DNA of 64,000 bases from Desulfolithobacter dissulfuricans (GCF_025998535.1 NZ_AP024233.1:744001-808000); one strand, 5' to 3'. Positions 13,848 to 63,953 are shown, counted from the first letter of the stretch. The notes: generated by a model not told the origin, from the letters alone. Numbers and translations are program-made.

Positions 13848-13936
13848 CGTGGCCTCCTTGCTTTGCTTTTGGCGTGTCCGCAACCATTGCGGCTCCACAT
13901 CCGACATCATTGTTGTCTGATCATCCGCGTGTACGT

Positions 13937-15373: not shown

Positions 15374-15407
15374 CTTGTATACACTCCATAGGATGATTCG
15401 AACTTAT

Positions 15408-25573: not shown

Positions 25574-26983
25574 TCACTGTCGGTTCTCCTCTGTTGCATT
25601 TTGTTCTTCAGCCAGGGGTTCCAGTTCATCCAGCACTGCGTATATGCTGTTCATCGCCTCGTCGATGAGCATGATGGCATATTTTTTGTTGTGGACCCCA
25701 TTGCCATAGACAACTATGTCCAGGGCCTGCTGTCCTTTGGCGATCTGCTCCTTGAAGGCCGCAACCCGTTCGGGATCGAGCCTGTCTTTGAATTCGTCCA
25801 GCAGGGCAAGGGCCCGGTCGTGATTCTCCTTGGCAAAGGCGACCTCGCCCTGAACTTCTTTTTCCCAGTCGGCGAGCAGTTTTTCATGATCCTTTGTATG
25901 ACAGTCCACGCATGCCCTGGCTGCCCCGCGAAGAACAGGTTCGCCTTTCAGTACCTCTTGTTTCTGATGGCAGCCCAAACAGTTGGTCTTGACGTTATAC
26001 ATGAGGTTCGGTGTCGCCGGCACTTCACCATAGGGATTGCCGACAAGGAGGGCCTTCTGGTAGCTGTGATGGTCCGGGTGACAGCTGGCGCAGTTCAGCC
26101 GGGCCGCCTCGATGAAATCACTTTCCTTGTGGACGATCGGCTGGTGGCAGTCAGCGCACTGGGCCTTCTGCTTAGCCACGTGTTCGCTGTGCATCAGCTT
26201 CATGTCATTCTTCTTGGCCAGTACCGCTGTATCACTGTGGCATTCTTTGCAGGCCCTGGGCATGAGGGCTGTCTCGCCGCGTATCATCTGGTAATGACAG
26301 CTCTGACAGGCAACACCGGCCTTCTCAAGGCTCTGATGGGTAATAATCTTTTCATCCTTGTCCGGCTGGGCATTCTTTTTCTGCGACTGCAGAGGCGTTG
26401 TCGGGATCTCATGACAGAGATTGCACGCCCCCCGTCCCTTGTTGAAGTCACTCTTCCTGAAGTGGCAGATATAGCACTGTTCCTTGGGCACCTCGAAATG
26501 CTTCTCGTCGCCAGCCTTGATATGGCAGGTCGTGCAGTGCATTTCCTGTCCCGGGATGGTTTTGTCGAAATGGGTTTTGTGGGTGAAGCTGACCTTTTTC
26601 TTTTCGCCGTACTTCAGCTTCTTGTCCATGAACTGGTCTGCAGGGTGGCACTTTGAAGTTGTACAGGAGATGTCAGCGATGTGGGTGGCTTTGCGGACCT
26701 CTTTTTCATCACTTGAGAGATAGGTGAACAACTGGCCCAATCCCTTGAATTTGGCGTGGAGGGTCATCTTTTCGCCCGGTGCGTAGTGGCAATCCACGCA
26801 GCGGACCTCGACCTTGCCGGATTTGCCATGTTTTGACGCCTGCCAGGTCTTGTAGGGTTTGTCCATTATATGGCATTTGGTCCCGCAGAACTGCGGTTTT
26901 GCCGTGTACGATTCAACCGAGAGAACCCCGGCGGCAGCCAGAAAAACAATCAGAACAATTGTCAGTACAATTCCTTTCTTCAT
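25574..26983 (-). CDS. NapC/NirT-like membrane-anchored dodecaheme cytochrome c (operon 2)
   Basis: The protein has 469 aa. An N-terminal transmembrane helix (MKKGIVLTIVLIVFLAAAGVL) is followed by CGTKCHIMDKPY. Twelve heme sites occur in the same order and with the same unusual spacings as in the operon 1 protein: first CxxxCH, third CxxxxCH (CTTSKCH). The heme-free helical C-terminus ends in VVYGNGVHNKKYAIMLIDEA, also shared. The probable role is quinol oxidation and electron delivery to the periplasmic ferredoxin subunit. It is the first gene of operon 2, and AAGGAG lies about 10 nt before the ATG. A sigma-54 promoter is 47 bp upstream. Confidence 0.93.
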   Translation of the reverse strand: MKKGIVLTIVLIVFLAAAGVLSVESYTAKPQFCGTKCHIMDKPYKTWQASKHGKSGKVEVRCVDCHYAPGEKMTLHAKFKGLGQLFTYLSSDEKEVRKATHIADISCTTSKCHPADQFMDKKLKYGEKKKVSFTHKTHFDKTIPGQEMHCTTCHIKAGDEKHFEVPKEQCYICHFRKSDFNKGRGACNLCHEIPTTPLQSQKKNAQPDKDEKIITHQSLEKAGVACQSCHYQMIRGETALMPRACKECHSDTAVLAKKNDMKLMHSEHVAKQKAQCADCHQPIVHKESDFIEAARLNCASCHPDHHSYQKALLVGNPYGEVPATPNLMYNVKTNCLGCHQKQEVLKGEPVLRGAARACVDCHTKDHEKLLADWEKEVQGEVAFAKENHDRALALLDEFKDRLDPERVAAFKEQIAKGQQALDIVVYGNGVHNKKYAIMLIDEAMNSIYAVLDELEPLAEEQNATEENRQ

Positions 26984-45797: not shown

Positions 45798-46244
45798 CTA
45801 ATCTTTCGAGGCACTCTGAAGGCAACAGGGCAGGGTGGCGACAAAATATCTGATTTCATCCCGTACCCGCCGGTAATGTTCCAGGGCCTCTTCCTCGCTG
45901 GCGGCCTCTGCCGCCAGCCGGGGCGGATCGTCAAAACCCCGGTGGATGACCTTTGCGTGCCCGGGAAAAAGGGGGCAGGATTCATGGGCGTGATCACAGA
46001 CAGTGATGACATAGTCAAAGTCCAGGTCCGGCAACTCTTCGATCAGCTTGGAACGCTGACCGGAGATATCCACTCCGGCTTCGGCCATGACCTGCATCGC
46101 CCGTTGGTTCATGCCATGTTTCTCGATGCCTGCCGACCAGGCATCGATCTGTTCACCCCTGAGCTTTTTTGCCCAGCCCTCGGCCATCTGGCTGCGGCAG
46201 GAGTTTCCGGTGCAGAGAAAAAGAATTTTTGTTTTTGCGCCCAT
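45798..46244 (-). CDS. arsC: Thioredoxin-type arsenate reductase ArsC
   Basis: The protein has 148 aa and the low-molecular-weight phosphatase fold. The P-loop is C11-TGNS-C16-R. The redox cysteines Cys83 and Cys90 (VCDHAHESCP) are placed as in the Bacillus/Staphylococcus enzymes (Cys10, 82 and 89 there). It reduces arsenate to arsenite in the cytoplasm using thioredoxin. GAGGA lies 6 nt before the ATG at 46244. It follows acr3 after 92 bp and would be co-transcribed with it. Confidence 0.95.
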   Translation of the reverse strand: MGAKTKILFLCTGNSCRSQMAEGWAKKLRGEQIDAWSAGIEKHGMNQRAMQVMAEAGVDISGQRSKLIEELPDLDFDYVITVCDHAHESCPLFPGHAKVIHRGFDDPPRLAAEAASEEEALEHYRRVRDEIRYFVATLPCCLQSASKD

Positions 46245-46336
46245 TGGTGTTCCTCGGGTCCCAGGCAGGGTGCCTGAAACTGAAATTCGGTCCGGACATG
46301 GCAAAACAGCGACCACGCAGCCGCCCTTGTCCGTGC

Positions 46337-48183: not shown

Positions 48184-49314
48184 ATGAGACATTTTTTGAG
48201 ATTGGCACTGATCTGTATTTTGATGGTCAGCGGATATGCACCCGCTTTCGGTTGGGGTAATGGCGGAGGTGAAGGATGGGGCGGCTGGAGTGATGATGAG
48301 TGGAGTGCTGCGCCGAATGCAGGAGGGCGCGGCAATGGCCGGCGCTGGAACGCGGCAAAAGGCGATGACTCCCGGAAGGGGGGACGTTACTGTTCGCCGG
48401 AGCAGGAGGAAGGATTGCTCGAGGTACTCCGGCAAGTCAGTGAACCATTTGACCCGGATAGTGAAATGGTGGGCGGGGCCTCGGAAGTGCGGTGGAAGTA
48501 CCGCCTTGCCGTCAGGCTCCGTCAATATGATGACTGCCGGGCCGAAGATGCCCTGCGTAAGCTCAGCGAGGAAAATATCTGTGAAGATCGGGGAGAAGGC
48601 AACGTCTTCTGTGTGAAGTGGACCGCCGAGCCGGGCCGTCAGAAGATCAGCGCTGCGGCGGATCTTGAAAAACTCTCTCCTGACGCGTTACCGGAAGAGC
48701 AGATCAAGATTATCCGTAAATACACAAAACGGCCTTACGAAAATGATTATGCTCTGCACGCGATAGCAAAATTTCTCAAGCAGCAGGCCATGTCCAGATC
48801 CGATTTCTCTGTTCCCCTGCTGGTCGAACTCTTTCCGGCCGATCCGGAAACCGAACAGATTGCCGGCCGGTTTCCGGCCCTGGCCAGCCGGGGGCTTGAG
48901 AAACTTTTCAGCTCATCCTATTACGATCAGGTCTGGTGGGGAATCAACCTGGCCCGTTACCTGGGCAAGGAGGAATTCCTTCCCCGGGCCTATGCCGTTG
49001 CCTTTGAGCAAGAAGGTAATATCGATTACGGCAACCGGGACGAGGTTGAAGCGATACAGACGGCTGCCATCGCCTTTTTCCGTTCTTTTGAACCGCAATC
49101 GCTGGAATATTACCGCCAGGTTCTCTACCGCAGCGATTTCACCCGGGGAAAAGAGTATATTATAAGTGGAGTAAAGCTGTTAGACAGTCAGGAGGTTCTT
49201 GGCCTGTTCTCCGAATATTTTGCCTATCTGGAGACAGTTGACGAGCCGGAAAACGCATTGCTGGTCCAGAGGCTGCGGCAAAAGATTTCTCGGATGGAGG
49301 AGCTGGGGCAATGA
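48184..49314 (+). CDS. Secreted protein of unknown function coupled to a carboxypeptidase
   Basis: The protein has 376 aa. A signal peptide (MRHFLRLALICILMVSGYAPAFG) is followed by a Gly/Trp-rich linker (WGNGGGEGWGGWSDDEW). The rest is helical. It contains HEAT-like repeats of the kind seen in scaffold proteins (ALHAIAKFLKQQA, GLEKLFSSSYYDQVWWGINLARYLG), but I do not recognise a family. A GGAGG site lies rather far upstream (about 14 nt). Its last codons overlap the carboxypeptidase start (ATGA), so the two are made together. Confidence 0.75.
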   Translation: MRHFLRLALICILMVSGYAPAFGWGNGGGEGWGGWSDDEWSAAPNAGGRGNGRRWNAAKGDDSRKGGRYCSPEQEEGLLEVLRQVSEPFDPDSEMVGGASEVRWKYRLAVRLRQYDDCRAEDALRKLSEENICEDRGEGNVFCVKWTAEPGRQKISAAADLEKLSPDALPEEQIKIIRKYTKRPYENDYALHAIAKFLKQQAMSRSDFSVPLLVELFPADPETEQIAGRFPALASRGLEKLFSSSYYDQVWWGINLARYLGKEEFLPRAYAVAFEQEGNIDYGNRDEVEAIQTAAIAFFRSFEPQSLEYYRQVLYRSDFTRGKEYIISGVKLLDSQEVLGLFSEYFAYLETVDEPENALLVQRLRQKISRMEELGQ

Positions 49315-50879
49315 GGTGCTACAGGACGGTTGGCGTACTTCTTGTCGCCTTGTTTGCGATCGTTCCGGCCACTGTTCATGCCGGTGGTTACTGTCTCAGT
49401 GCCACAATGGGCTGCAAGAAAACCGGAATGATAAGCAGGTATCTTGCGGATATGGCAGATAATTCCTCCGGGTTTGCCGTGGCCGGGACCCTGGGTACAA
49501 CCTCGGGGCGCGGAGATGGCGACGGCAGTGACATCCCGGCTATCCTTATTACGGAAAACGCTTCCTGGGACGAGAGCCGTAAACCTACGGTGGTTATTAC
49601 CGGGGCCATACACGGCAATGAATGGGCTACGCCAGAGGTCTGTCTCGGGATCGCCGAATACCTGCTGGCTAACAAGGATAATTCCGAAGCGGCCCGCGAT
49701 GACTTTGGGATGCTGATTAACGAGGCTGCACAGAAGACAGGGGATGGCAAGACTGAGAAGAAAATAGTTCCATCCATCAGCGATATCGCTCGACTGCTCA
49801 AAACCGTTCAGGTGGTCATTGTGCCGGTCCTTAATCCGGACGGTTATGATTTCAGTCACACCGACGCCGGCAGAAAATCCTATTATGGAGCGGGATGGCG
49901 CCCCAATCGGCGGATACAGGGGCTCCTTGATCAGGACATTGTCTGCTATCGTCAGGATGGCAGTCAGTACGCTTCTGTGCCGTCCGATGTAGATCGCTGC
50001 TTTCTGGCCGATTTTGACGATACGGCCGACGGAGGTGACCTGGAAGAGGAAGAAGTGGTGGTCTGCGAAAGCCGGGACGGCAGTTCTCTGTATCTGTTCG
50101 AGCCGTCGCTCAACGTGGATTCGGCGGAGATGTTTGATGCCCTGTATGGCTCCACCGATCCGGCAAGAGTTGTCTGCGCCTCGAGCCAGCGCCGGGTCTG
50201 GAAAGATGCATGGCCCTTGATCGGCGAGGATACCGTGGCCCTGAAAACGGCCAGGGCGGATGGATATCTGCAGGAATCATCCGGGGTCGATCTCAACAGG
50301 AACTTTCAGTACAAGTGGGATGTGGTACAGGATCAGAAACATCTTTTCATCAGGAGCCGGTCCCCGTCGTCCCGTATGTTTCGCGGCAGGAAGATGATCT
50401 CCGAGGCGGAAACCGCAGCAATGGAAAGGCTCGTCGCCCGAATGAACGTGGTGGCGCTGATCGATTATCATGCCGGCTCGACCCAGGTGCTCTATCCATA
50501 TGCCTATTCGACAACCGAGCATGCCGAGCACACATACCTGGGAAAGAGATGGGGGAAGAATGATTATGAAGCCTTCCGGCTCCTGTCGGAGCAGATTGCC
50601 TCGATCCTCAATCGTCATGACCGCGGTGATCCATCAATCGTCAACTTCACTGCGGCCCAGAACTACAACGATGTCAGTGTGGGAAGCGGGGTGGCCAGGG
50701 ACTGTTATTACCAGACAGAACGGATAGCAGCCATAAATATCGAGGTGCACGACAAACGGTATACCTATGAAAATGAAGAGTTCAGGAGCATTGTCCCCAA
50801 GATCTGCAAGATTAATGTCCCCGGTGCCGTCTGGTTCATGTTCTGGGCCGCTGACCTCGGGGCAAGGGTCGAAGACTAA
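49311..50879 (+). CDS. Secreted zinc carboxypeptidase (M14 family)
   Basis: The protein has 522 aa. The signal peptide is TVGVLLVALFAIVPATVHA. The zinc site is HGNE in GAIHGNEWATPEV. Later motifs are SGVDLNRNFQYKW (substrate-binding NR), LIDYHAGSTQVLYPY (third zinc ligand region) and INIEVHDKR (catalytic Glu). A 150-residue insert with acidic stretches (DLEEEEVVVCES) lies between the first and second motif groups, making it longer than typical M14 enzymes. It is convergent with the cytochrome gene on the other strand; their ends overlap by 4 bp. Confidence 0.9.
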   Translation: MRCYRTVGVLLVALFAIVPATVHAGGYCLSATMGCKKTGMISRYLADMADNSSGFAVAGTLGTTSGRGDGDGSDIPAILITENASWDESRKPTVVITGAIHGNEWATPEVCLGIAEYLLANKDNSEAARDDFGMLINEAAQKTGDGKTEKKIVPSISDIARLLKTVQVVIVPVLNPDGYDFSHTDAGRKSYYGAGWRPNRRIQGLLDQDIVCYRQDGSQYASVPSDVDRCFLADFDDTADGGDLEEEEVVVCESRDGSSLYLFEPSLNVDSAEMFDALYGSTDPARVVCASSQRRVWKDAWPLIGEDTVALKTARADGYLQESSGVDLNRNFQYKWDVVQDQKHLFIRSRSPSSRMFRGRKMISEAETAAMERLVARMNVVALIDYHAGSTQVLYPYAYSTTEHAEHTYLGKRWGKNDYEAFRLLSEQIASILNRHDRGDPSIVNFTAAQNYNDVSVGSGVARDCYYQTERIAAINIEVHDKRYTYENEEFRSIVPKICKINVPGAVWFMFWAADLGARVED

Positions 50880-52074
50880 TCCTTGTTCCAGTGGCAGCCG
50901 ATGCACTGCATGTTGCCCGGCATGAGGCGCAGCTTGCTTGGTCGCTGCGATCCAGCGGCCGAGGCCCGGACCTTGAGAACTCCCTGCTGGTGCGGATTGT
51001 GGCAGGTGGCGCAGATGATACGGCCCCGGTACAGTGGCAGTTCGATACCGAGTCTCCTGACCGATGTCTGAATCGCCCGAAGTATCTTTCTGGAGGGGCG
51101 GCGCAGGTGATCGACCCCGGCCGGATGGCCGCGGGTGAAACCGTGATGGCAGCCGATACAGTACTCATCGGGATTCTTGGCAATGAAGCGGACGTGCTTC
51201 ATGCCCATGATGGTCACATCGGGCCGGGTGGGGTGGCAGAACAGACAGGTGGCCTCGATGATCTTTCCCTGGTCGTCGAGCTGGATATGGGGATTCATGC
51301 GCTGATAAGCCTCGCGCAGATGACAGAGAAAACAGAAACTGTTTCTTGACAGCCCTTCCCGGCGCAGGAAGTTGGGGTTGCGCTTCTGCCGCTTCTCCGG
51401 CACCGGAGCGCCCATCTGCAACCGGGCATCGTGACAGGTATTGCAGGAGAGGCGGCCGTCCTGCAGGGGCATGTCGTCGGGAATTCGGATCTGGGGCGAG
51501 GGCTTGACACCTACCGGATGGATATCGGCCCGGGCATAGCGGGTACCGTGGCAACGGTTGCACAGCAGATTGTGGTCCCCCTTTTCCTTCAGCCGGGGGG
51601 TGTCCCTGGTCGGGGTGGTCTCATGGCAGCAGAGACAGAGATATCCTTTCCAGTGGGGATTGATGCTGCGGCTGCGGCGGGCCCTTTCCAGGTAGGTCTC
51701 TGAGAGGAGAAATTTTTTCTCAGCACTGGCATGGATGGTGTGGCAGTCGAGACAGAAGAAGTGCGGCCGCTTTTTTTTGTCCCGGATGAATCGTTTGCCA
51801 CGGGCTGCGGTATCCAGGAAAGGGTTGAGTCCCTTGTAGTGCAGTCTGCTTACCTTGGGGTGACACTGGCGGCAGAGCGCCTCACTGGTGTCATCGGGCA
51901 GGAGATTGATCGGGGATTTGGTTTTTGCCTGCCGGTGGCATTGTTCGCAGGTCAGGCGATCATGGGGCTCATCGACCTCGGGCGGGGGGCGGCCAGAACC
52001 GGGAGACCGGTCAGCACCATTATTAGTGAGAGAAGAAACAGCCTCCAAATCCAAACCATGTCCACCCCTTTCAT
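50876..52074 (-). CDS. 11-heme cytochrome c, apparent frameshift between signal peptide and mature part
   Basis: Eleven CxxCH sites are counted, from CEQCH to CIGCH. The cytochrome frame begins with a non-secretory N-terminus at 52054. In another frame an ATG at 52074, preceded by GGAGGGAG, encodes a good signal peptide (MVWIWRLFLLSLIMVLTGLPVLAAP). The two frames would join if the G run at 51984-51989 (six G on the plus strand) had one more base. I therefore place the start at 52074 and treat the frameshift as real or as an assembly error. The protein is presumably periplasmic or extracellular and part of the electron transfer operon upstream. Confidence 0.85.
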
Positions 52075-52163
52075 CTTCTCCCTCCGGCAGCTTCTGTTGC
52101 AGGTTTGTCCGTGCTGGTCCCGGTTACCACTTCGGTTTTGTCGAAAAAACCTGAATCAGTGAA

Positions 52164-52276
52164 GCTGGAATTTCGCCGCAGGCGCCAGGTAAGCGAAGAC
52201 TCCGGGAAGAGGCCCATTGATTGGAGTGATACTCTATCAATCGTTGATGACGCAGCGGATGCGGTGAAATTCCAGC
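52164..52276. repeat. Palindromic element between two cytochrome genes
   Basis: A 16-bp inverted repeat with one mismatch, GCTGGAATTTCGCCGC (52164-52179) and GCGGTGAAATTCCAGC (52261-52276), encloses a second hairpin (ATTGAT/ATCAAT with an inner GAGT/ACTC). It lies in the 308-bp gap between the 22-heme and 11-heme genes. It could be a regulatory RNA structure or a small mobile repeat. Confidence 0.6.
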
Positions 52277-52354
52277 TCCCGAAGGGCGGCTCCATCGCGA
52301 TGGGTAAAATGAAACACCTCAGGTTATCTTTCCTTCTTGCTTGTGATTCAAGGT

Positions 52355-52396
52355 AGATAACAAAGAAACAATAATTTTTCCGTCACGGATTCAGGG
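52355..52396. repeat. Dispersed about 45-bp repeat, copy 2
   Basis: It matches 32491-32536, including the 20-nt TTTTCCGTCACGGATTCAGG. The repeat overlaps the stop codon and last residues of the 22-heme cytochrome gene. Confidence 0.65.
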
Positions 52397-55076
52397 GAAA
52401 ACCAGGGGAGTAATGCCCTTTGATTTTCTGGCGCTCCTTGGTTACATGATAATACCTGTAGAGGAAAAGTGTATCGATTCCGTGGCATTCATAGCAAAGT
52501 TTTTTTCGCACTTCCCTGCGCAGAAAGCTGTTTACCGGACTGCCCTCAATGTTGCGGCCATTGCCCGGTCTGCTCTGGCCCGCCTGCCAGACATGGGGAT
52601 CGTGGCAGGTGGGGCAGCTGATCTCGCCGGTGACCGCTGTCCTGCCGTCACCGGTGAACAGCGGAATACCATCGGGTGACGAGGGGTCATCGAGCAGGGT
52701 CGAAGAGTAGGGCAGCCGGTAGCCGAAATAGATCCGTCTTGGATGGGAACCCACCTGGACCAGCTTCTCCTTCCCAGCACCTCTGGGGTTGTGACATCCG
52801 TAGCAGGCCTTTTCCATGAAATCATCTCCTTTTCTGCCCTTCATCAGGGGCGCATTCCACAGTACCACTCTGTTTGCGGCATTATGGATTCCGTGACAGG
52901 GCGCGCAGGCCGAGCCGCTCACCGCTTTCTGACCCCTGGCGTTTTTTGAATCCGGGGCTGTGTAGCGCAGGTCATGGTCCGTGCCCGTGACCAGGTATTC
53001 CCGGCGGTGACACTCCCGGCAGAGCAGAGGTTTTTCCAGGTTGGGAATGCGCAGGAAGCTGGTCGCCTCGGTTCCTTCCACCTTTCTGCCCGGTCCCGTG
53101 GTCGCCTGATCACCGCTCCATTGATGGGGATTATGACAGGTCTCGCACTCCATGTTGTTGCCGTTTTTTCCCTGGCCAGACAGGGGCAGGTTCACCTTTT
53201 CCTCCACTGGAACCGATACCGGGTGGGAGTTCTTGCCTGTGGTCTTGGCTTTGGCCACCCCGCCGGTCCGGTGGCAGCTGCGGCAGAGATCCGAGCGGGA
53301 CGGATTTCCTGGCAGGGTCCGGGCCCAGAGCCGCGGACCGGTTCCGTTATGGACCACGTGGCAGGGTGAGCAGATGCCGTCCTGGGTCACGGTCCGGCCA
53401 GCGCTATTCTTTGCCTTCGGTGCGGTGAGGTGCAGGTCATGGTCCGTATCGGCGACGAACGACTCTTTTTCATGGCAGGTCCGGCACAGGGAAGGATCGG
53501 CCCCTGATGTTTTGCGGAGAAAGCTGCTCGAGGCGTCCCCCTCCTCGTTGTGGCCCGTGCCGGGCGCCGGATCGCCTGGCCGCCACTGGTGTGGATTATG
53601 ACAGGTGTGGCACTGGATCCGGCCGATGTTGTCATCTCCTGTGGCCAGCGGCAGGTCCACCTTGCGCTTGAAGACCACGTCCACGGGATGGGTGACCTTG
53701 CCGATGGTTTTTTTGCCTGCTTCCCGACCCTGGCGATGGCAGTCCTGGCAGAGGGCCGAATCCGGACCCTGTTTCCCGGTCGGTCGGGCCCAGAGATAGC
53801 GGCCACCACCGTTGTGGGGAACATGGCATGGAGAGCAGACTCCGGCCCGCTCCGGGGTCTGTTTGAGCCTGTTTTGGCTTTTCGGGGCCGTGATCCGTAG
53901 ATCATGATCCGTTGCCACCACCATGGCCTCGCTGGTATGACAGGAACTGCAGACAGTTTTTTCCGGCAGGACCAGTCCCCTGCTGCCAGGGGCCGCCTGA
54001 TGGGGTCTATGACAGGTGCGGCACTGGAGGGTGTGACCCGGGCCCTGGTAATAGCGGGTGGTGCCCGGTGGCTGCTTGAAGGATTTGTTGATCGGGTGAT
54101 TGGTCCCGGTGGAAGTGCTGCCTCCAGGACCGCTGGCCTTTTCCCTGTGGCAGAGCAGGCAGAGACTGGAATCACTCTCCGGTTGGATAAGGATATAATC
54201 ATAGCGGGTGGGGCCGGATTTTGGCGGCAGTGGCTGGCCAGGTTTTTTCTCCCGGTGGATCAGGTGGCAGGAGAGACACTGAACCGAGTTGTCCCGACCG
54301 GTGAACGTAACTTGGCCCCGGGGGAGACGATCCTCTTTCATGACCACCCTGACGGGATGATTTTCATGGCTGGTCCGGGGAGACTCTTTCGGGTCGATCC
54401 GTTTTTCATGGCAGGTAATGCACAGGGTGGAATCACTGGCCGGAAGGAGCAGGTTTCGCTCCACACCCCCATGGGCCGTATGGCAGCTTTCGCAGATCAC
54501 CTGCCTGGGATCCCTGTCCGAGGGCACCGCACCGGCCTTGAAAATGGCCTCGGGTAAAGGCCGATCACCACTGTGCAGGGGATGGTTGTGGCTGGTATCG
54601 GTTTTGCCGACATGACACATCTCGCACATGATGGATTCTTTTTCCGAGATCCGGAGAAAGATCGTCCGTTCGATGGAGGTGTCGGTGGGCACGCCGTGGG
54701 CGGAGTGGCAGGTCGCACAGACAATTTTCCCATCATGGGAGAGAGGAAAGAGCTTGGGAATTTTGACCTTGTCCGAGGGGATGATACCGGTTTTATGCCG
54801 GTCAAGAATCCAGACTTTTTTCCTTGAGTCATCGGTGGATCCGTCATGGCAACTCAGGCACATCAGTTCGGTGCCGGCCACGTCCTCGGTCTCCAGGGGA
54901 GTCAGAACTGTGCCGTACCCTTGGACAAACTGATCGATCCAGCGGAAATGACAGATGGCGCATTCCCGGGCCGAATTCCTGGTCAGGTTACCGGCACCGT
55001 GTGCCGGTGGTGCGGTGCAACCCAGGAGCAGGAAAAGCAGGAGCCCAGGCAGTGTAAAGCGTCCCGTGGCATTCAT
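52383..55076 (-). CDS. 22-heme lipoprotein cytochrome c with repeated modules
   Basis: The protein has 897 aa. The lipobox LLLGC (Cys20) indicates anchoring in a membrane, probably the outer one. Twenty-two CxxCH sites are counted. Residues from about 390 to 855 consist of modules of about 155 residues, each starting with TDHDL-x2-TAP (near 390, 545 and 700) and containing CSPCH, a CxxCHR site, CxTCHNPHQW and a CxxCHxxE-like site. This points to internal duplication of a four-heme unit. The ATG overlaps the stop of the beta-propeller gene (ATGA). A long heme chain of this kind fits electron transport across or outside the outer membrane. Confidence 0.93.
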   Translation of the reverse strand: MNATGRFTLPGLLLFLLLGCTAPPAHGAGNLTRNSARECAICHFRWIDQFVQGYGTVLTPLETEDVAGTELMCLSCHDGSTDDSRKKVWILDRHKTGIIPSDKVKIPKLFPLSHDGKIVCATCHSAHGVPTDTSIERTIFLRISEKESIMCEMCHVGKTDTSHNHPLHSGDRPLPEAIFKAGAVPSDRDPRQVICESCHTAHGGVERNLLLPASDSTLCITCHEKRIDPKESPRTSHENHPVRVVMKEDRLPRGQVTFTGRDNSVQCLSCHLIHREKKPGQPLPPKSGPTRYDYILIQPESDSSLCLLCHREKASGPGGSTSTGTNHPINKSFKQPPGTTRYYQGPGHTLQCRTCHRPHQAAPGSRGLVLPEKTVCSSCHTSEAMVVATDHDLRITAPKSQNRLKQTPERAGVCSPCHVPHNGGGRYLWARPTGKQGPDSALCQDCHRQGREAGKKTIGKVTHPVDVVFKRKVDLPLATGDDNIGRIQCHTCHNPHQWRPGDPAPGTGHNEEGDASSSFLRKTSGADPSLCRTCHEKESFVADTDHDLHLTAPKAKNSAGRTVTQDGICSPCHVVHNGTGPRLWARTLPGNPSRSDLCRSCHRTGGVAKAKTTGKNSHPVSVPVEEKVNLPLSGQGKNGNNMECETCHNPHQWSGDQATTGPGRKVEGTEATSFLRIPNLEKPLLCRECHRREYLVTGTDHDLRYTAPDSKNARGQKAVSGSACAPCHGIHNAANRVVLWNAPLMKGRKGDDFMEKACYGCHNPRGAGKEKLVQVGSHPRRIYFGYRLPYSSTLLDDPSSPDGIPLFTGDGRTAVTGEISCPTCHDPHVWQAGQSRPGNGRNIEGSPVNSFLRREVRKKLCYECHGIDTLFLYRYYHVTKERQKIKGHYSPGFPLNP

Positions 55077-56056
55077 CGGATCTTTTCCAGCACAACCACC
55101 TGTCCGGTGTACATTTCCACCACATAGAGGTTGTTGCGGCTGACCGTCAGTCCGACCGGCGTGGTAAACCTGATGATATTCCCCGAGGGATCGGTGACAA
55201 TGCCCCGCAGGCTGCCGCCCCGGTCAAATATCTGGATGACACCCAGGTAGCTGTCCGATACATAGACTTCACCGCCGGGACTGATGGCGATACCCTTGGG
55301 GCGGAAAAACTGGCCCGGTTCGATGCCCCAGCCACCGATGAAATGGCCAAAGGAGCCATCGGGGTTAAGGACCTGGATCCTGGTGTTGATCACCTCGACC
55401 ACATAGCTCCGCCCGTCCCGGTCCGTGGCCAGCATGAAAGGGTAGCGGAATTCTCCGGGATTGCGACCCATGACTCCCCGGCTCCAGATGGGGATGCCCA
55501 TCCGGTCCAGGCGGAGGACACGATGATTGTCGTTGTCCACCACCACAAAGCTGCCATCCGGAGCAAAGGCCACGTCCGAACAATCGGCCGCCTCCCCGTT
55601 TTCAGCAGGCGGAAGAGGGAAGATACGGGGAGGCTTGTTCGTGGCCGAAAAGAGAATCAGTCGATGGTTGCCGGAATCGGCGACCACCACATCACCTGAA
55701 GCCGAGACATCCAGGCCCAGCGGCTGGTTGAGCAGGTTCGGTGTACCTAGATCCAGGAGATGGCTGCCGTCGCGGCCATAAACCCTGATCCGGTCTGCGG
55801 TCCCGTCCAGGACAAAGATACGTCCCTTTCGGTCCACACCCACATCGCTTGGCAGGTGAAACCCGTCTCTGAGCCTGAAGAGTTCCCGATACCGGCTCGC
55901 TGGAAACGGCTGCTCAGTCGCAGGGAGGGCAGATGGCAGCAGCAGGCAGAGCAGAAACAGGAGGGGGAGAATGTTTCTGATAGCATGTTGCCCGGTCAGC
56001 ACCAGAAAATTCCTGTGCTGTTTATGCCGCTGCTGCCTTCTGACCGCGGTCCTCAT
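55073..56056 (-). CDS. Secreted NHL-repeat beta-propeller protein
   Basis: The protein has 327 aa. A basic N-terminus is followed by the hydrophobic segment ILPLLFLLCLLLPSALPA. Six NHL-type repeats are seen, for example LPSDVGVDRKGRIFVLDG, QPLGLDVSASGDVVVADSGNHRL and RPKGIAISPGGEVYVSDSYLG. Such propellers often hold partner proteins, and they recur in cytochrome clusters of metal-reducing bacteria. The start at 56056 overlaps the cytochrome b stop by one base (TGATG). It is the third gene of the operon. Confidence 0.88.
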   Translation of the reverse strand: MRTAVRRQQRHKQHRNFLVLTGQHAIRNILPLLFLLCLLLPSALPATEQPFPASRYRELFRLRDGFHLPSDVGVDRKGRIFVLDGTADRIRVYGRDGSHLLDLGTPNLLNQPLGLDVSASGDVVVADSGNHRLILFSATNKPPRIFPLPPAENGEAADCSDVAFAPDGSFVVVDNDNHRVLRLDRMGIPIWSRGVMGRNPGEFRYPFMLATDRDGRSYVVEVINTRIQVLNPDGSFGHFIGGWGIEPGQFFRPKGIAISPGGEVYVSDSYLGVIQIFDRGGSLRGIVTDPSGNIIRFTTPVGLTVSRNNLYVVEMYTGQVVVLEKIR

Positions 56057-57654
56057 CACTGGGTTGAACGGTTTTCCTTGAGCAGCTGCCGCAGCTTCTG
56101 CTGCTTGATCAGGTCCGGATCGAACATGGTCGGCAGGTAGAATTTCATGTACCGGTCGATCATGTCCGCCACCTCGGTACGGTAGAGGCTCTCGGCCCTG
56201 GCCCTGGAGTAGCCGACGGCAACAAAGTCGATGTAAGGTTGGCGGCTGTGGCATTCCGTGCACTGGATTGGTTTCTTGGAGATATTTTTGTGCAGGACGG
56301 CCTTGGCCTTGGCCTGTTCCTCCGGGGAGAGGGTATTCACCTTGGCGATATATTCCTTGGTCAGCTTTTCATCGAGTTGGTGATCCAGGCGGTGGGCTTT
56401 ACCACCGGGTTCCACCACCACCGGCACCAGCCGGGCGCCGAAGACCCCGTCCTCACCCCGCAGTTTGCCGACCCGCTGTTTGTCGCTCTTGTTGTCGAAC
56501 CAGGCAAAATGATGGTTGGGGTCGTTGGGGTCGAGGCGGACATGGCAGGTCTCGCAGGCCATGAAGTAATTGTGCATGTTGAGAAACGACCTGATGTCCG
56601 GCGATTTGGAATGGGGATAGGTCCCGTGACAGGTAATACATACCGGCGGGTTGCCCAGGTGCATCTTGACGTTGTTGTCCAGGGCGTGAAAGTGGCCGGT
56701 CATGTCCTTGCTGCTGATGGCCCAGAAGACATTGCCTGCCAGTTTGCTTCCCGTGGTAGCGGCGCCTGTGTACTGGGCCGGAAAGTAGAGCAGTTTGACC
56801 AGCGCGCCGGCGAAAACCAGGCAGATGAGCATGGAAAGCACGGTGAAGGCCTTGATCAGATAATGACCAAAGCTGTGCTTCTCCGGAAAAACGTGCATCT
56901 CTCCATGTTCAGCCGCCTTGGCGGCGCTGGGATCAATAAGACCCTCTTCCACCATCCTGGCGAACTGGAGGGGATGCTCTTCCTTGAGTTCGTGCAGGGG
57001 CATTTTACCGTCGATCCAGATCCGGGAGCCAGGAAACTTACCCGGTTTATAATGGACCGTGTAGAAATGCCAGACAAAGACCGCCAGGGTGGCCAGGATC
57101 GCCTCCATGCCATGGATCAGGATGGAGAGGTTGAGGACAAAGGTGGACCAGTATTCCTCGGTCCAGAGCAGGAGACCGGTGGAAGAAATGATGATGGTTC
57201 CGGCCACCAGGGCCCAGTACTCCATCTTCTCCCGGTAGTCGAACCGGTCGAACTCCGGTGGTTCTTCCCGCATGCCCAGGTAATAGGCCAGGTTCTGGAC
57301 CATATCCTTGGCATCCTTGAAGCGAGGAATCATGTCGCGGAGAAAGGAGCGACCGTCCGGATCGGTTATGATGTACCAGACATGGGCCAGGGAGGAGAGG
57401 ATCATCACGGTCCCGGCTATCCGGTGCAGCAGGCCCCGGTATTCGAAGACCACCTTGCCTGTTTCGCCGAATTTCAGAATCCATGCCTCTGGAATCTTGA
57501 GCATGAAACCGGTGATCACCAGGATGAAAAAGGTGACAAAGGTCAGAAGATGCTGCAGCCGTTCCTGGCTGTTGAGGCGAATGATATAGTTTGTATATGG
57601 GGCCTGGCTTTCCATGGTTCCACCTGTTGTGCTGTTTCCTGTATCTGTGTTCAT
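56056..57654 (-). CDS. Cytochrome b with C-terminal triheme domain (probable quinol oxidase subunit)
   Basis: The protein has 532 aa. The N-terminal half is a four-helix cytochrome b561/FdhI-type domain; histidines in RLQHLLTF, LLHRIAG and LSILIHGMEAIL are possible heme b ligands. The fifth helix (KAFTVLSMLICLVFAGALVKLLYF) leads to a periplasmic part with three CxxCH sites (CITCH, CETCH, CTECH). It resembles the Cbc-type menaquinol dehydrogenases of Geobacter and probably passes electrons from the quinol pool to the multiheme partners encoded around it. It starts 4 nt after the gene at 57659-58888. Confidence 0.88.
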   Translation of the reverse strand: MNTDTGNSTTGGTMESQAPYTNYIIRLNSQERLQHLLTFVTFFILVITGFMLKIPEAWILKFGETGKVVFEYRGLLHRIAGTVMILSSLAHVWYIITDPDGRSFLRDMIPRFKDAKDMVQNLAYYLGMREEPPEFDRFDYREKMEYWALVAGTIIISSTGLLLWTEEYWSTFVLNLSILIHGMEAILATLAVFVWHFYTVHYKPGKFPGSRIWIDGKMPLHELKEEHPLQFARMVEEGLIDPSAAKAAEHGEMHVFPEKHSFGHYLIKAFTVLSMLICLVFAGALVKLLYFPAQYTGAATTGSKLAGNVFWAISSKDMTGHFHALDNNVKMHLGNPPVCITCHGTYPHSKSPDIRSFLNMHNYFMACETCHVRLDPNDPNHHFAWFDNKSDKQRVGKLRGEDGVFGARLVPVVVEPGGKAHRLDHQLDEKLTKEYIAKVNTLSPEEQAKAKAVLHKNISKKPIQCTECHSRQPYIDFVAVGYSRARAESLYRTEVADMIDRYMKFYLPTMFDPDLIKQQKLRQLLKENRSTQ

Positions 57655-57658
57655 GCCT

Positions 57659-58888
57659 CTACTCCCCGTGACTTTTTCTGCTTTTCACTGTTCTGTAGAA
57701 GTCCAGGATCTGGTGCACCAGCATGCCGCCGATGACCACCGTGATCAACAGGGTGTAGACGTACTTGACCAGGCTGTAGATTTTCTGCTGGAAGATTTCC
57801 TGCTCGCTGAGCTTGGAGGTATCCTTTTTGGAGATCAGCGTGCGGAATCGACGCTCCTTCTTGAGGGCCTTGATGTCCTCGGCGATTTTCTCACCCTGGA
57901 CAAAGGCGGCTACGGTCTCCTCGAAGCCGAGCCCGGTCCGGTGGATTTTTCCGGAGACGAATTTTTCCGTGGCATGGGGATGGCATTGCTGGGTCCCGCT
58001 TCCTCCTGCGCAGGTGCGGCGAAGGTTCTTCTTGTTGACCGGAGAGTTGGGGTCATCGGCTGGAACCATGGAATGGACGGTGTAGCCGATGGGGGCGTGG
58101 CAGTTGAGGCAGTCCGGGGCATTGGGGTCCCCGTAGAGTACCGCTTTCCAGTGGTAGGTGTCCTGGTAGTTGGCCGTGGGCATAAGGCCGTGCCGGGCCA
58201 TCATCTCCCCGTCCTGATGGCAGTTGAGGCAGAGCTTGACCGTTTCCAGTGAGGTCCGGGAGCGGTGCATGCGGTGGCTGAAGTGGTTGTAGAACCGGTT
58301 GGTCCACTGCTTGTCGTCGTGGCAGCCCAGGCAGCGGCGCAGGGCATTGAACGAGATCCCGGCCTCCAGGGTGGTGAGGTCGCTTACCGGCTGATAGATT
58401 TCATTGACGTGGCAGTCGGTGCAGCCGGGCATATCTTCGGGATATTTTTTCGGCTTCCCGGTCGTATCCCTGCCATGGACACTGTGACTCAGTTTGTTGT
58501 TGATCTTGCCGTGGGAGAATTCCTTGCCGGTGGATGGTTCCTTGATATGGCACTTGGTGGTGCAGTCCACCTTCTTGGCATCGGTATGGGGGATGACATC
58601 CAGGTTCAGGTGGCAGTTGCGGCAGAGAACCTGGCTGTGAACCGAGTTGAGAAATTTGGAACCGGCAACATAGAATATCCGCAGCCTTCCTGTCTTCTGG
58701 TCGATCCGGCCCAGCCCCGGATATTTATGGCAGATCAGGCAGTCCTCCTCGTCGGCCCCGGCCGCGTACCCGGAGGTGCCTGTCCACATGATCAGCAATA
58801 TGCTCATCAACAAGATCTGGATGATCCAGGGAAGACTGTTTTTTCGCACTGTTTCCCTGCCAGTGATGTCCAGGTACGCAACGTTCAT
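57659..58888 (-). CDS. Membrane-anchored multiheme cytochrome c (about eight hemes)
   Basis: The protein has 409 aa. Helix IIQILLMSILLIMWTGTSGYA is the signal or anchor, and a second helix lies at the C-terminus (YVYTLLITVVIGGMLVHQIL). Heme sites are six CxxCH (CLICH, CRNCH, CTDCH, CLGCH and CLNCH twice) and one CxxxCH (CTTKCH). CAGGSGTQQCH, with eight residues between the cysteines, may be an eighth, unusual site. It is the first gene of the operon and is tightly linked to the cytochrome b gene, so both probably form one inner membrane complex. AGGAG lies 8 nt before the ATG. Confidence 0.88.
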   Translation of the reverse strand: MNVAYLDITGRETVRKNSLPWIIQILLMSILLIMWTGTSGYAAGADEEDCLICHKYPGLGRIDQKTGRLRIFYVAGSKFLNSVHSQVLCRNCHLNLDVIPHTDAKKVDCTTKCHIKEPSTGKEFSHGKINNKLSHSVHGRDTTGKPKKYPEDMPGCTDCHVNEIYQPVSDLTTLEAGISFNALRRCLGCHDDKQWTNRFYNHFSHRMHRSRTSLETVKLCLNCHQDGEMMARHGLMPTANYQDTYHWKAVLYGDPNAPDCLNCHAPIGYTVHSMVPADDPNSPVNKKNLRRTCAGGSGTQQCHPHATEKFVSGKIHRTGLGFEETVAAFVQGEKIAEDIKALKKERRFRTLISKKDTSKLSEQEIFQQKIYSLVKYVYTLLITVVIGGMLVHQILDFYRTVKSRKSHGE

Positions 58889-59199
58889 AGTTTTACTCCT
58901 GTTCTTTCCTGGTTGGTATCCTGATCAAATAATACTCATCTGCCATGGAATAATAAGTGGGGAATGGTTAAAAGAACCCGTTTAAAATGCTAAAATTCGA
59001 TGCTCCCAAACCTATGCTTTGCCGTGGTGAAAAACATGAAGTTACAGCGAGATGCCACAATGTATCTCTTGCGATGGATGAGGGTGGTACAGGGGAGCGG
59101 GTGACAGTCTGGGCAGGGCTGGGGGGCGGAGGATGACAAAAAAAACCGGTTCCACCGCAAGGGGGGAACCGGTTTTTTCGGGCTGCAGGAATGTGACAG
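58889..59199. other. Intergenic region with promoter of the cytochrome operon and terminator of the porin unit
   Basis: The terminator at 59138-59178 lies in it. The rest (about 250 bp) must hold the promoter of the minus-strand cytochrome operon; I could not identify convincing promoter boxes. No gene was seen. Confidence 0.55.
59138..59178 (-). terminator. Strong intrinsic terminator after the porin gene
   Basis: AACCGGTTCC and GGAACCGGTT form a 10-bp stem. The A run on one side and T run on the other make it work in both directions; in the minus direction it follows the porin stop codon by about 22 bp. Confidence 0.9.
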
Positions 59200-60744
59200 T
59201 TAGAAATGAACGTCCATCAACAGGTAGTAGTTGTCCAGGGTGGCATCAGTGGGCATGGGCTGGCCCATGTGCTGTCCGCTGCCGGTGTAATCGTAATTGA
59301 CCCGCATATACCCTGTGCGGAAGAAGAGATACTTGTTGACCGGCTGAATATAATAGAAATCATAGACTGAGCCCCTGGTCGCCAGCTTGTTGAACAGGTC
59401 CGGGGTACCCATGGTCATGCTGAACCAGTACTGGGAACCATAGTTGTATTCAAAGCCGAGTTTGGCTCCCCGCAGCCAGTCCGATGGGAGCGTGTAACGA
59501 AAGCCTGTGTACAAAGCGTAGCCGCTGTGGCTTTCCTGGCCATCCCATGAGAGCAGACCATAGAGTCCCAGCGGTGCGTTGCCACTGGGATCCGAGGCAT
59601 TACCGGCATAAGAGGCAAAGAAGTCAAGACCGCTGTCCCTGATATTTTTTGTCTGAAAATGGATGCCCCAGAGGTCCATGTCGCCCAGGTCGGTGTTAGC
59701 TATGCCTGTGTCGGCCAGTTCCGGACCGGTAAGATAGAAGGGCAGGTCCCATACATGGGCGTAACTGAGGACCAGCAGACTGTCTTTGAACCCGGGAACC
59801 TGGGTCTCGAAAAAAGTGGCGAAAATGGTCGAATCTCCGGCCTCGTCGTCGTCAAAGAATGGGAACGGGCTGCCGGTGTTGTTATCGTCGTCACTGTGAT
59901 AGGCCTTGCCAAAGGCAAAACGGAGGCCGTTTTCTTTGAGGCCGGTGAACCGTTCCAGGCCCAGAGTGGCGACAATGCCATCCGCCTCGCCGTCAAATAT
60001 GAGGGCTGGGTAGGTGGACTGGCGCAGACGCTTTTCCCTGAGTTCAAATGGTGGTCCCTCGGTAGAGGGATGTCGGCCGATGGTAATGGCCAGGGGAACC
60101 GGCATGCCCTGGGGGATCCAGTCCACATAGGCCCGGTCGACCCACAGGTTGCTGCTGTTTGGCCGATGGGTTCGGTTGGAGTCGTTGAAAAGGCCGCTGG
60201 CGGTGCCATCGTCGCTGTCGGCCCAGTTCTTGTACATGGCAAGACGGCCATGAAAGGAGAGGCCATCGGTGATTTTGGCATCCATGTTGATCCGGAACCT
60301 GTTGGTCCAGTTGTTTGAATCGGTTGTCTGGTCGACCTGTTCGATGGCGCCGACCAGGGCTTGCTGGGGAGTGAGGCCGCCGGCCAGTCCACTTTCAAAA
60401 GTGGTCATGTTGACCCTGGTGTAATCCTCTGCCCTGTAGCCATCCACCCGGGTTCTGAGCTCGGCCCCGAAGTTGAGCTTGTTTTTTATCTGTTTGGTCT
60501 CAAGTTCATCCATGGTGTCGTAGATATTATCGATGTCCCTGGCCAGTTTTTCGTACTTGGCATCATCCGGGGCCGGTGCGTTGGTAGTTGATTCCAAAAA
60601 TTCGACCCGTTTCTGCAGTGCATCGAGCCGCTGCAGGATAGCTTTATAATCTTGGGCCGGGATGGTGACGGTATCCCCGCCGCCGGCCTGGGCGCCACTG
60701 GTCATGGCCAGCATTATGGCCACGCTGAGCACGGTTTTCTTCAT
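59200..60744 (-). CDS. Outer membrane beta-barrel porin (DUF3373-like)
   Basis: The protein has 514 aa. The signal peptide is MKKTVLSVAIMLAMTSGAQA. A short coiled coil (YKAILQRLDALQKRVEFLES) is followed by a barrel with many alternating strands; the C-terminus ends LLMDVHF, with the terminal Phe typical of outer membrane proteins. It resembles DUF3373 porins that occur beside multiheme cytochromes in Desulfuromonadia and related groups. GAGGAGG lies 7 nt before the ATG at 60744. It is the last gene of a unit starting with two small cytochromes. It may be the channel of a porin-cytochrome conduit. Confidence 0.85.
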   Translation of the reverse strand: MKKTVLSVAIMLAMTSGAQAGGGDTVTIPAQDYKAILQRLDALQKRVEFLESTTNAPAPDDAKYEKLARDIDNIYDTMDELETKQIKNKLNFGAELRTRVDGYRAEDYTRVNMTTFESGLAGGLTPQQALVGAIEQVDQTTDSNNWTNRFRINMDAKITDGLSFHGRLAMYKNWADSDDGTASGLFNDSNRTHRPNSSNLWVDRAYVDWIPQGMPVPLAITIGRHPSTEGPPFELREKRLRQSTYPALIFDGEADGIVATLGLERFTGLKENGLRFAFGKAYHSDDDNNTGSPFPFFDDDEAGDSTIFATFFETQVPGFKDSLLVLSYAHVWDLPFYLTGPELADTGIANTDLGDMDLWGIHFQTKNIRDSGLDFFASYAGNASDPSGNAPLGLYGLLSWDGQESHSGYALYTGFRYTLPSDWLRGAKLGFEYNYGSQYWFSMTMGTPDLFNKLATRGSVYDFYYIQPVNKYLFFRTGYMRVNYDYTGSGQHMGQPMPTDATLDNYYLLMDVHF

Positions 60745-60817
60745 GTTCTGCCTCCTCGATCCATTTCGATGGGACAGCAAGTGGTGTCGCCGTCCTGATT
60801 CTCCTGATGATATATGA

Positions 60818-61161
60818 CTACTTGGGAATAACCGCCGCCACCGGGTGATCACTGGCGGCGGCATGATGTTCGAGAAAAGAAAGGATCCGCTCTTTTTCTT
60901 TTTTCGATATCATGGATGAAAGATCAACCGGATGTCGCCCCCGTTTGAAGTATTTTTTTCAGACCAGCCCTGCCTTGTCGGCCGGATTGATCGGTGGAGC
61001 CTGGCCGCCCTGGCGGTGACAGTTGCCGCATTTTTCAAGAAAAGTATCCAGCTCGCTGGCAGCTGCAGGAGCGAAAAAAAACAAGAGAGCCAAGGCCAGG
61101 ACAAAGATTTTTTTCGTCCAGGCCGACAGCGGTCCGGCAGGATACGGAGTTGTTCTTGCAT
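60818..61161 (-). pseudogene. Small monoheme cytochrome c, damaged duplicate
   Basis: The translated text ELDTFLEKCGNCHRQGGQAPPINPADKAGLV matches the neighbour at 61188-61496 but is then stopped by TGA (60961-60959), where the neighbour has TGG (Trp). Beyond the stop, KKYFKRGRHPVDL and DHPVAAVIPK continue in frame to a TAG at 60818. In addition, the ATG at 61161 is one base out of frame with the signal peptide; one more A in the A run near 61105 would join them. Both lesions suggest a decaying gene, unless the sequence has errors. Confidence 0.78.
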
Positions 61162-61187
61162 GGTGTTTCCGGGAAAATGCAGGGAAC

Positions 61188-61496
61188 TTATTTCGGGATG
61201 GCCGCGGCAACAGGGTGATCACTGTCTGCGGCATGATCCTGAAGATAGGAGAGAATCAAAGCCATCTCTGCGTCATTGATAGTGGCAGCCAGGTCTACGG
61301 GATGTCGTCCCCGTTTAAAGTATTTTTTCCAGACCAGTCCTGCCTTGTCAGCCGGATTGACCGGTGGGGCCTGACCGCCTCTCTGATGACAGCTGCCACA
61401 TTTCTGGACAAAAGTTGCCTCATTGTCTCCAGCTCGGGCCGGCAGGGTCAGGGCAAGTGTCAGCAGGATGAGTGTACATAGTGAATACAATCTCAT
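61188..61496 (-). CDS. Small monoheme cytochrome c
   Basis: The protein has 102 aa. The signal peptide is MRLYSLCTLILLTLALTLPARA. One heme site CGSCH is near residue 37, and a methionine (NDAEMALIL) near residue 80 may be the second heme ligand. The RGGQAPPVNPADKAG segment resembles small class I cytochromes. It is the first gene of the unit cytochrome, damaged duplicate, porin. A probable promoter (TTGACT, then TACCCT after 18 nt) lies upstream between about 61560 and 61590. Confidence 0.85.
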   Translation of the reverse strand: MRLYSLCTLILLTLALTLPARAGDNEATFVQKCGSCHQRGGQAPPVNPADKAGLVWKKYFKRGRHPVDLAATINDAEMALILSYLQDHAADSDHPVAAAIPK

Positions 61497-61964
61497 ACTT
61501 GATCCCAAGGTTTAGTTTTCAGGTTAGGGGGTTGCTTGATTACACACTGAAGGGTATCAAAAGCAAATCGTGAAAGTCAAATTTTTATTTGCTTGTCCGA
61601 CAATCGGATTGACACAATGGGTATGGGGTGCGATTTCTGGCAGGTGGCACGGTGGCGGGCCTTGGCGGGCAGGGTGTAAAAGAAATGTCATGCCTTTTTT
61701 ATAGCGAACAGCTGTGGTATAATCTCTCTGAACCCCGAATACCACAGGGGGAGACCGCAATGGATTCGATCCCGGGTGATGTGTAATTGGGGCAGGGAGG
61801 TACCAGCAAAACAGATGATTGCTGCCCGCACAGTGGCCACCGGGCTAGCTGTGGGCAGATTTTTTGTAAAAGGCAAGCCTGACAGCCGGTCTTGTCACGA
61901 CCGCAGCTCCCTTCCCGTGCCGGTTCCGCCGGGTTGGTGTTGCAAAGAACGAGGTAGACTTACG
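61497..61964. other. Divergent intergenic region and long leader of the chemoreceptor gene
   Basis: It holds promoters for the cytochrome/porin unit (minus) and the chemoreceptor (plus). A small palindrome CCGA-CAA-TCGG lies near 61598-61608. The leader from the promoter at 61718 to the GTG at 61965 is about 235 nt. No gene was seen. Confidence 0.55.
61718..61723 (+). promoter_or_regulatory. Extended -10 promoter box (TGGTATAAT) before the chemoreceptor
   Basis: A perfect TATAAT with TG one base before it. The -35 region is poor (CTTTTTT), as is common with extended -10 promoters. Confidence 0.55.
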
Positions 61965-63953
61965 GTGAAAAAACTAAGCAGACTGCGCAAAGTGATGGAC
62001 CTGAAAGTCAGAGGTAAGATTCTCACAGGGTACGTTGTTGTGGCTCTGTTCATTGCCGCCATCGGCGGTATTGCCCTGTACCAGTTCACCTCGCTGTCGG
62101 ACCGGATCAACTACCTCACCGACGTGGTGGCCAATGAGGTGCGAAACGCCGGTGATATCAGTAAGCTGGTACTCTCCATGCGGACATCGGTGGAAAAATT
62201 CATCTATCTGCAGGATCCGCAGGAGAAAAAACAGGCCCTTGCCTACAGTGATGAGGTGAACAGGCAACTCGCCCTGGCCGGTCAGCAGATTCAGAGCCAG
62301 GACCAGAAAAAACGGCTCTGGCAGATCACCGAGGTGTCCAGGGAATATATAGGCAAGTTCAAGAACGTGATCATCCGCATCGAATCCATGTCCAGCAATA
62401 CCAGACGGCTGCTGGATTCTACCTATACTATTCAGAGCGATCTGCTGGCGCTGCTGGCAGCCAGTCGAAACGATCCGCAGAAGGCGGATATTCTCCTCAA
62501 AGTGATCGATGAGTTCAATCATGTGGTGCTTCTGGTCAACAGGTACCTGCAATATCATGATCAGGCAGGGGGAGAGCAGGCCGGCCGGATCCTGCTTGAT
62601 ATAGGTGAACAGCTTGGGCAAATCAAGGATAAGTCTTTTGAAAACCAGATGTGGGACATCGAGGACTTCGGGGATAACTTCCTTGGTCTCAAGGCCATTC
62701 AGAAGAAGATGAATGACGAGATCGAGGGAACCATCCTGCCGCTGGCCCCGAAGATTGTCGCCCTGTCCAAGCAGGTCAGCGATTCCGGCTGGCAATCCAT
62801 GGACAGGACCAAGAAGGAAGTTGCGGCCCAGGTGGTCCGGGCCAAGTCACTGATCATTTCCATTTCTGTCGTTGCCGTACTGGCGGGGCTGTTCATTGGT
62901 TATGTGGTGGCTCAGGCTCTGGTACGGAAGATCACCAGGGTGTCCAACCAGCTCCAGGGTATTGCCAGTGGAGGTGCAGACCTGACCAACCGGCTGCCGG
63001 TCGGGGGATCTGACGAGATCTGTGCGCTGGCCTCCTGGTTCAATACCTTTGTGGAAAAACTGCAGCTCATAATTCGGGATGTGGTATCGGGCGCGGATAC
63101 GGTCAACAGTACTTCGGCCCGGTTTGGCGAGCTGTCCCGGACCATGTCCACCCAGTTGGAAGGGATCTCCGAAAAATCCACCGTTGTCGCCCGGGCGGCC
63201 CAGTCCCTGAACGAGAATATGGGCTCGGTTTCCCACGCCATGGAAGAAACAACGGCCAATGTCAACCTGGTGGCCAGCGCCGCTGACGAGATGAGTACCA
63301 CGGTGTCAGATATCGCCGAGAATTCTTCCACTGCCCGGGCCATCACCGTCCAGGCCGTGGAACACGCCAACCTCACCTCGGAGAAGATTGAAAACTTGAA
63401 CAGTAAGGCCCAGGAGATCGGCATGGTGACCGAAGTGATCACCGAAATATCCGAGCAGACCAATCTGCTGGCCCTCAACGCCACCATCGAGGCCGCCCGG
63501 GCCGGCGAGGCAGGCAAGGGCTTTGCCGTGGTGGCCAATGAGATCAAGGAGCTGGCCAGGCAGACCGCCTCGGCAACCCAGCGTATCAAGGAGCAGATTG
63601 CCGAGATACAGCAGACCACCCAGGAAACGTCCGATGAGATCGGGCAGAGTGCCAGGGTTATCGACCAGGTGGAGGAGATCGTGACCAAGATCGCCACCGC
63701 CGTAGAGGAGCAGGCGACCACTACCCGCGAGATCGCCGATAACGTCAGTCGGGCCTCTACCGGGATCGCCGACACCTCTGAACGGGTTGCGGAAAGCTCC
63801 CAGGTCACCGCTGAAATTTCCGGAGAAATCGGTGAGGTGTCCGAGGCGGCCCTGGCCCTGGCCAGCAACAGTGAACAGGTGCGAAACAGTTCGGACGAGC
63901 TCGCCCGGGTGGCCCGTAGTCTCAGGGAGCTGGTGGGGCAGTTCAAGGTTTGA
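61965..63953 (+). CDS. Methyl-accepting chemotaxis protein
   Basis: The protein has 662 aa from the GTG at 61965 (GAGGT about 10 nt upstream); the longer frame to 61776 is unlikely. A first helix ([20 protein letters not shown]) and a second ([25 protein letters not shown]) bracket a helical periplasmic sensor domain of about 270 residues, the size of an HBM-type ligand domain. HAMP and a signalling domain follow; the hairpin tip is [20 protein letters not shown]. No CheR-docking pentapeptide is at the C-terminus. A role in taxis towards electron acceptors is suggested only by the neighbours. Confidence 0.93.

Follow-up and report, generated by a model that had tools for sequence, protein, structure and literature searches.

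A recurrent gene module predicted to link the quinone pool to giant multihaem cytochromes in Desulfobacterota, encoded apart from a neighbouring DUF3373 porin

Gene organization of the locus

The DNA analysed here (the window) is a stretch of 64,000 nucleotides, bases 744001-808000 of the closed 3.6-Mb genome of Desulfolithobacter dissulfuricans, and positions are counted from its first base unless another region is named. Two adjacent groups of genes lie on its minus strand: unit 2, with monohaem cytochrome genes and a DUF3373 barrel, and unit 1 (58888-50876), with genes A and B and the genes for an NHL propeller, a 22-haem and an 11-haem protein. In the direction of transcription, the features are:

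61188-61496, minus strand: monohaem c cytochrome, upstream partner of the DUF3373 porin (PF13442, E 1e-4, below the cut-off)
60818-61234, minus strand: second, tandem monohaem copy, with an in-frame TGA where the first copy has TGG (Trp)
59200-60744, minus strand: DUF3373 porin with an N-terminal coiled coil (PF11853, E 1.3e-68, 232 bits, cut-off 26.1)
59139-59179, minus strand: strong terminator-like hairpin with a U-run, separating unit 2 from unit 1 (-26.2 kcal/mol, z -4.2)
57659-58888, minus strand: gene A, octahaem-type c cytochrome with six CXXCH, one CX3CH and one CX8CH site and a C-terminal transmembrane helix
56056-57654, minus strand: gene B, dihaem cytochrome b of the FdnI/b561 type with a fused trihaem c tail on the periplasmic side (PF01292, E 5e-14)
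55073-56056, minus strand: exported NHL-repeat beta-propeller (PF01436, E 1.2e-24)
52383-55076, minus strand: 22-haem cytochrome, ending in three tandem tetrahaem units
52150-52370, minus strand: dispersed repeat of 220 bp between the 22-haem and 11-haem genes
50876-52074, minus strand: 11-haem cytochrome gene, with a signal peptide from 52074 and a haem-region frame open from 52054

All genes named in a preliminary description of this DNA were recovered where it had placed them, and its beta-propeller and DUF3373-like porin agree with the Pfam matches above. The small cytochrome that it assigned to unit 2 is present as two tandem monohaem genes; the second, intact in frame apart from the TGA, is either a pseudogene in the making or the product of a sequence error. 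The proteins of unit 1 carry 6 (A), 3 (B), 22 and 11 CXXCH motifs, and the haem total of the unit comes to about 46 when A is counted with 8 haems and B with two b and three c haems. The stop codon of B overlaps the start of the NHL gene (TGATG), and the end of the latter overlaps the start of the 22-haem gene (ATGA). Elsewhere in the host genome the 220-bp repeat recurs as some 17 whole or partial copies, which are 76-93% identical.

Cytochromes of unit 1

Only six CXXCH motifs occur in A, so that the preliminary label of an octahaem-type protein holds if the non-canonical sites are counted. In the alignment, the CX3CH site is invariant and the eighth Cys...CysHis is conserved; across 35 proteins a single alignment column at this eighth site reads CX2CH, CX4CH or CX8CH, the host protein (P0001) having CX8CH at residues 293-303 and its relatives CX4CH or CXXCH. 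This series makes a haem site at this position plausible, and CX8CH may represent an unusual c-haem site, for which A would offer a compact test protein. The AlphaFold model of A (pLDDT 44) is unusable, and neither A nor the 22-haem protein found a relative in a sequence search of the PDB.

Gene B had been described as a cytochrome b with three haems. Its three c-type sites are indeed present, but the protein also keeps the four histidines that bind the two b haems in a dihaem cytochrome b: His 18, 57, 155 and 169 of Escherichia coli FdnI, which we take to be the haem-b ligands in its published structure, align with H35, H77, H181 and H196 of B, all invariant in nine orthologues. Selenocysteine was considered for the in-frame TGA codons of cytochrome b genes in eight genomes; a read-through frame was found only in two, in both cases near the end of the frame as for an ordinary stop codon, and the idea was therefore dropped.

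All 22 CXXCH motifs of the 22-haem protein are kept in 11 of 11 aligned sequences, and exactly 22 other histidines are kept in at least 10 of them, as many as 22 bis-His haems would require. The tetrahaem units at the C-terminal end of the protein are about 155 residues each and 38-47% identical, a pattern which suggests that this family of giant cytochromes may grow by tandem addition of such units. The haem count of the preliminary description thus stands, but its lipoprotein assignment is doubtful, because the lipobox is weak in the host and absent from orthologues, which have ordinary signal peptides, many ending in ...AAGNLTQNSS. A lipobox is carried by some orthologues of the 11-haem protein.

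The 11 CXXCH motifs reported for the last gene were confirmed; eight of them are kept in all 11 aligned sequences, and each of the remaining three in 9 or 10. The signal peptide and the haem region, though, are read in different frames (52000-52074, minus strand), close to a run of C. This apparent frameshift means that the module may be partly broken in this organism or that the sequence is wrong; together with the 220-bp repeat upstream, it leaves the host module perhaps not fully working.

Conservation of unit 1 in Desulfobacterota

When 395 sampled genomes of the phylum were searched with a profile of A, 26 proved to encode it, mostly in neighbourhoods that also contain genes for a cytochrome b, an NHL propeller, a giant cytochrome of 16-38 haems and a trihaem c protein, either fused or separate. 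Outside the host, nine complete five-gene clusters were found (L039, L040, L041, L042, L050, L052, L054, L056 and L145), and four more are cut by contig ends (L053, L055, L057 and L144). The order A, B, NHL propeller, 22-haem and 10-, 11- or 15-haem protein is conserved in other genomes, with genes overlapping or nearly so, and the nearest relatives of the host cluster belong to Desulfobulbales, such as Desulfocapsa, Desulforhopalus and Desulfosediminicola. Judged by this gene order, unit 1 is indeed a module resembling an operon. The preliminary description rightly set its composition apart from those of Mtr, Omb-Omc and Ext; the clusters of the same composition in other genomes show that it is not unique.

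The host has a second, diverged module at about 2.970-2.976 Mb. It adjoins a large cytochrome island (G000:C1:2942001-2982000, a range that takes in the second module; loci L103 and L043) encoding a PPIase, 26-haem and 10-haem cytochromes and an NHL protein, as well as several cytochromes of 5-16 haems. In this second module, the gene related to that for the 11-haem protein (L043, about 13580-14520) looks split too.

Unit 2 as a separate porin unit

The DUF3373 barrel is modelled with 16 strands at moderate confidence (pLDDT 61.5), and the model matches 16-strand general porins with a Z of about 20 over 300 aligned residues (rmsd 3.7). Its sequence also matches a solved "50 kDa outer membrane protein" (10aw_A, E 9e-61). 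MtrB is a 26-strand barrel that encloses a decahaem; its absence from the results of the fold comparison is uninformative by itself. In 9 of the 9 loci with upstream sequence, the gene immediately preceding a member of this DUF3373 subfamily encodes the monohaem cytochrome, whereas neither a DUF3373 nor a monohaem gene was found in any of 35 unit-1-type loci (a few of which overlap or repeat a genome). Two genomes, G050 and G056, have both units, but on different contigs, and the flanks of their unit 1 are free of the monohaem-porin pair. Among 57 relatives, 43 have a DUF3373 gene and few have unit 1; DUF3373 is thus a common porin. The barrel fits both the PF11853 family and the general-porin fold; it is an ordinary general porin rather than a cytochrome-enclosing one, and unit 2 is separate from unit 1.

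The monohaem-DUF3373 pair often adjoins a chemoreceptor or sensor gene (L093, L094, L095, L098 and L102), and such a gene lies beside the pair in the window as well (61776-63953).

Outer-membrane partners of the module

In other genomes the module is found beside different sets of outer-membrane proteins. A GSU2203-type decahaem cytochrome and a GSU2204/MtrB_PioB-like barrel adjoin it in L147-L149 and L156, and an Oet-like set of roughly 680 aa in L050 and L052, where Oet-like refers to gene content (small cytochromes, a propeller lipoprotein and a large barrel) and not to published Oet sequences. In a genome taken as that of Desulfurivibrio alkaliphilus AHT2, where the locus lies near 2.446-2.459 Mb, the neighbours are an MtrC-like 9-haem cytochrome and a putative barrel of 440 aa. 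Ferrihydrite raises the transcription of 13 multihaem cytochromes in this species (PMC12545173).

None of these partner sets adjoins the host module. Searches of the host genome with PF11854 and for an Oet-like barrel gave no match, a search with the 440-aa barrel of D. alkaliphilus was likewise empty, although this result carries little weight, and a 741-aa protein of the host island has no detectable relation to the Oet-like barrel. The separate island at 2.94-2.98 Mb is a candidate for the outer-membrane partner in this organism.

Proposed function and alternative explanations

We consider that unit 1 probably encodes a Cbc-like oxidoreductase acting between quinone and multihaem cytochromes, together with electron acceptors dedicated to it, and that the chain ends on the periplasmic side. 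In the inner membrane, the dihaem cytochrome b of B would be the site of electron exchange with menaquinol, as its homology to FdnI suggests, and the gene fusion and linkage point to the trihaem c tail of B and the membrane-anchored A as the next carriers. Electrons could then pass down the bis-His haem chain of the 22-haem protein and on through the 11-haem one, with the NHL propeller perhaps serving as a scaffold or docking platform. The module would stop within the periplasm or reach no further than the inner face of the outer membrane, and the outer-membrane conduit with which it is used would vary from one bacterium to another. The gene content, the conservation of the module and of its haem ligands and the independence of the porin unit are observed, and the direction of flow, the type of quinone, the contacts and the location in this scheme are inferred. 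The route from the quinol pool through the periplasm and the outer membrane that was first proposed is thus upheld for its inner half, by the conserved operon, the FdnI-like cytochrome b and the full bis-His sets, but not for its outer half: with a nearby porin that is ordinary and unrelated, unit 1 would supply just the inner part of an electron wire.

A single conduit across the whole envelope, built from both units and using the DUF3373 barrel and the monohaem cytochrome for its outer-membrane step, is very improbable, even though the units share a strand and adjoin in the host genome. The terminator between them, the lack of linkage in the 35 unit-1-type loci, the separate contigs in G050 and G056, the wide distribution of DUF3373 compared with unit 1 and the 16-strand general porin model, as against the 26 strands of MtrB, all speak against it; unit 2 was accordingly rejected as the outer-membrane step of unit 1, and the misleading porin can be removed from the electron-conduit model. 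A different reading keeps unit 1 wholly within the periplasm, as a hub or capacitor between the quinone pool and periplasmic reductases or dehydrogenases (for example, of sulfur compounds), with the outer membrane never reached. The plain signal peptides of the 22-haem orthologues would fit such a hub, as would the two NapC/NrfH-type decahaem genes and the molybdoenzyme-like operon in the same window and the fact that the module has no outer-membrane partner beside it in the host and in the majority of orthologous loci. We regard it as somewhat unlikely, since in other lineages the module is repeatedly linked to sets of outer-membrane cytochromes and barrels.

The closest described relatives are CbcBA and Cbc5 (CbcEDCBA) of Geobacter sulfurreducens, inner-membrane menaquinol oxidoreductases with a similar quinone-to-periplasm role, and unit 1 has their dihaem PF01292 cytochrome b and adjacent anchored c cytochrome of 7-8 haems (PMC7726332, PMC7894505). 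Acidobacteria contigs with an A-B-like pair and neither NHL nor giant cytochrome would also accord with outright identity to Cbc5 or direct orthology to CbcBA. Yet published Cbc5 includes the 12-haem CbcC (OmcQ) and the 2-haem HAMP protein CbcD (PMC7894505), both missing from unit 1, which instead has a trihaem c domain fused to the cytochrome b together with NHL, 22-haem and 11-haem genes; we therefore hold this identity to be quite improbable, a distinction drawn from published descriptions. The module might also run inward, with electrons from outside or from the periplasm reducing quinone during uptake or syntrophy, as proposed for CbcBA in Seep-SRB2 (PMC10553843). This differs from the oxidoreductase proposed here only in direction, which cannot be read from sequence, and we see it as a possible though minority alternative.

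Comparison with known electron transfer systems

Like unit 1, the Skennerton core and Oet-type operons of syntrophic sulfate reducers combine large multihaem cytochromes with a beta-propeller (PMC5539420, PMC10553843); they differ in a PPIase, in 16- and 26-haem cytochromes and, for Oet, in an outer barrel, whereas unit 1 has neither PPIase nor barrel and the PPIase/26-haem/propeller set of the host lies elsewhere. Multihaem cytochromes and NHL or propeller proteins also occur together in DFE_0448-0465 of Desulfovibrio ferrophilus, for which the accessible portions of the reports describe no pair of cytochrome b and octahaem protein as in unit 1 (PMC9769857, PMC8322314). Porin-cytochrome (Pcc), Mtr and Ext systems resemble unit 1 in the broad sense of electron transfer at the envelope: in these, as in Oet, a barrel is encoded with periplasmic and surface multihaem cytochromes, and no such barrel-cytochrome pair exists at the host locus.

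None of the published clusters of propeller and multihaem proteins that we compared (PMC5539420, PMC8322314, PMC9769857) has the composition of unit 1; coverage of the literature was partial, and its novelty is provisional. Tentatively, and with less than even confidence, we suggest a previously undescribed phylum-wide module from quinone to giant cytochrome, which would grow by tandem tetrahaem units (16-38 haems), use interchangeable outer conduits and bind a c-haem on CX8CH. A recurrent wiring module from inner membrane to periplasm across Desulfobacterota can be set apart from its associated outer-membrane conduits, and each half becomes testable separately.

Other genes in the window

A zinc carboxypeptidase gene (Peptidase_M14, 49311-50879, plus strand) is convergent with the end of the 11-haem gene. 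The two NapC/NrfH-type cytochromes, which are related to each other and have 10 CXXCH motifs each, are encoded at 13940-15403 and 25577-26983 (minus strand), the latter upstream of genes for a Tat-type FeS protein and a molybdoenzyme-like protein (25447-22008). An ACR3 arsenite efflux transporter gene (TIGR00832, 46340-47545, minus strand) adjoins a low-molecular-weight phosphatase/arsenate-reductase-like gene (45798-46316, minus strand).
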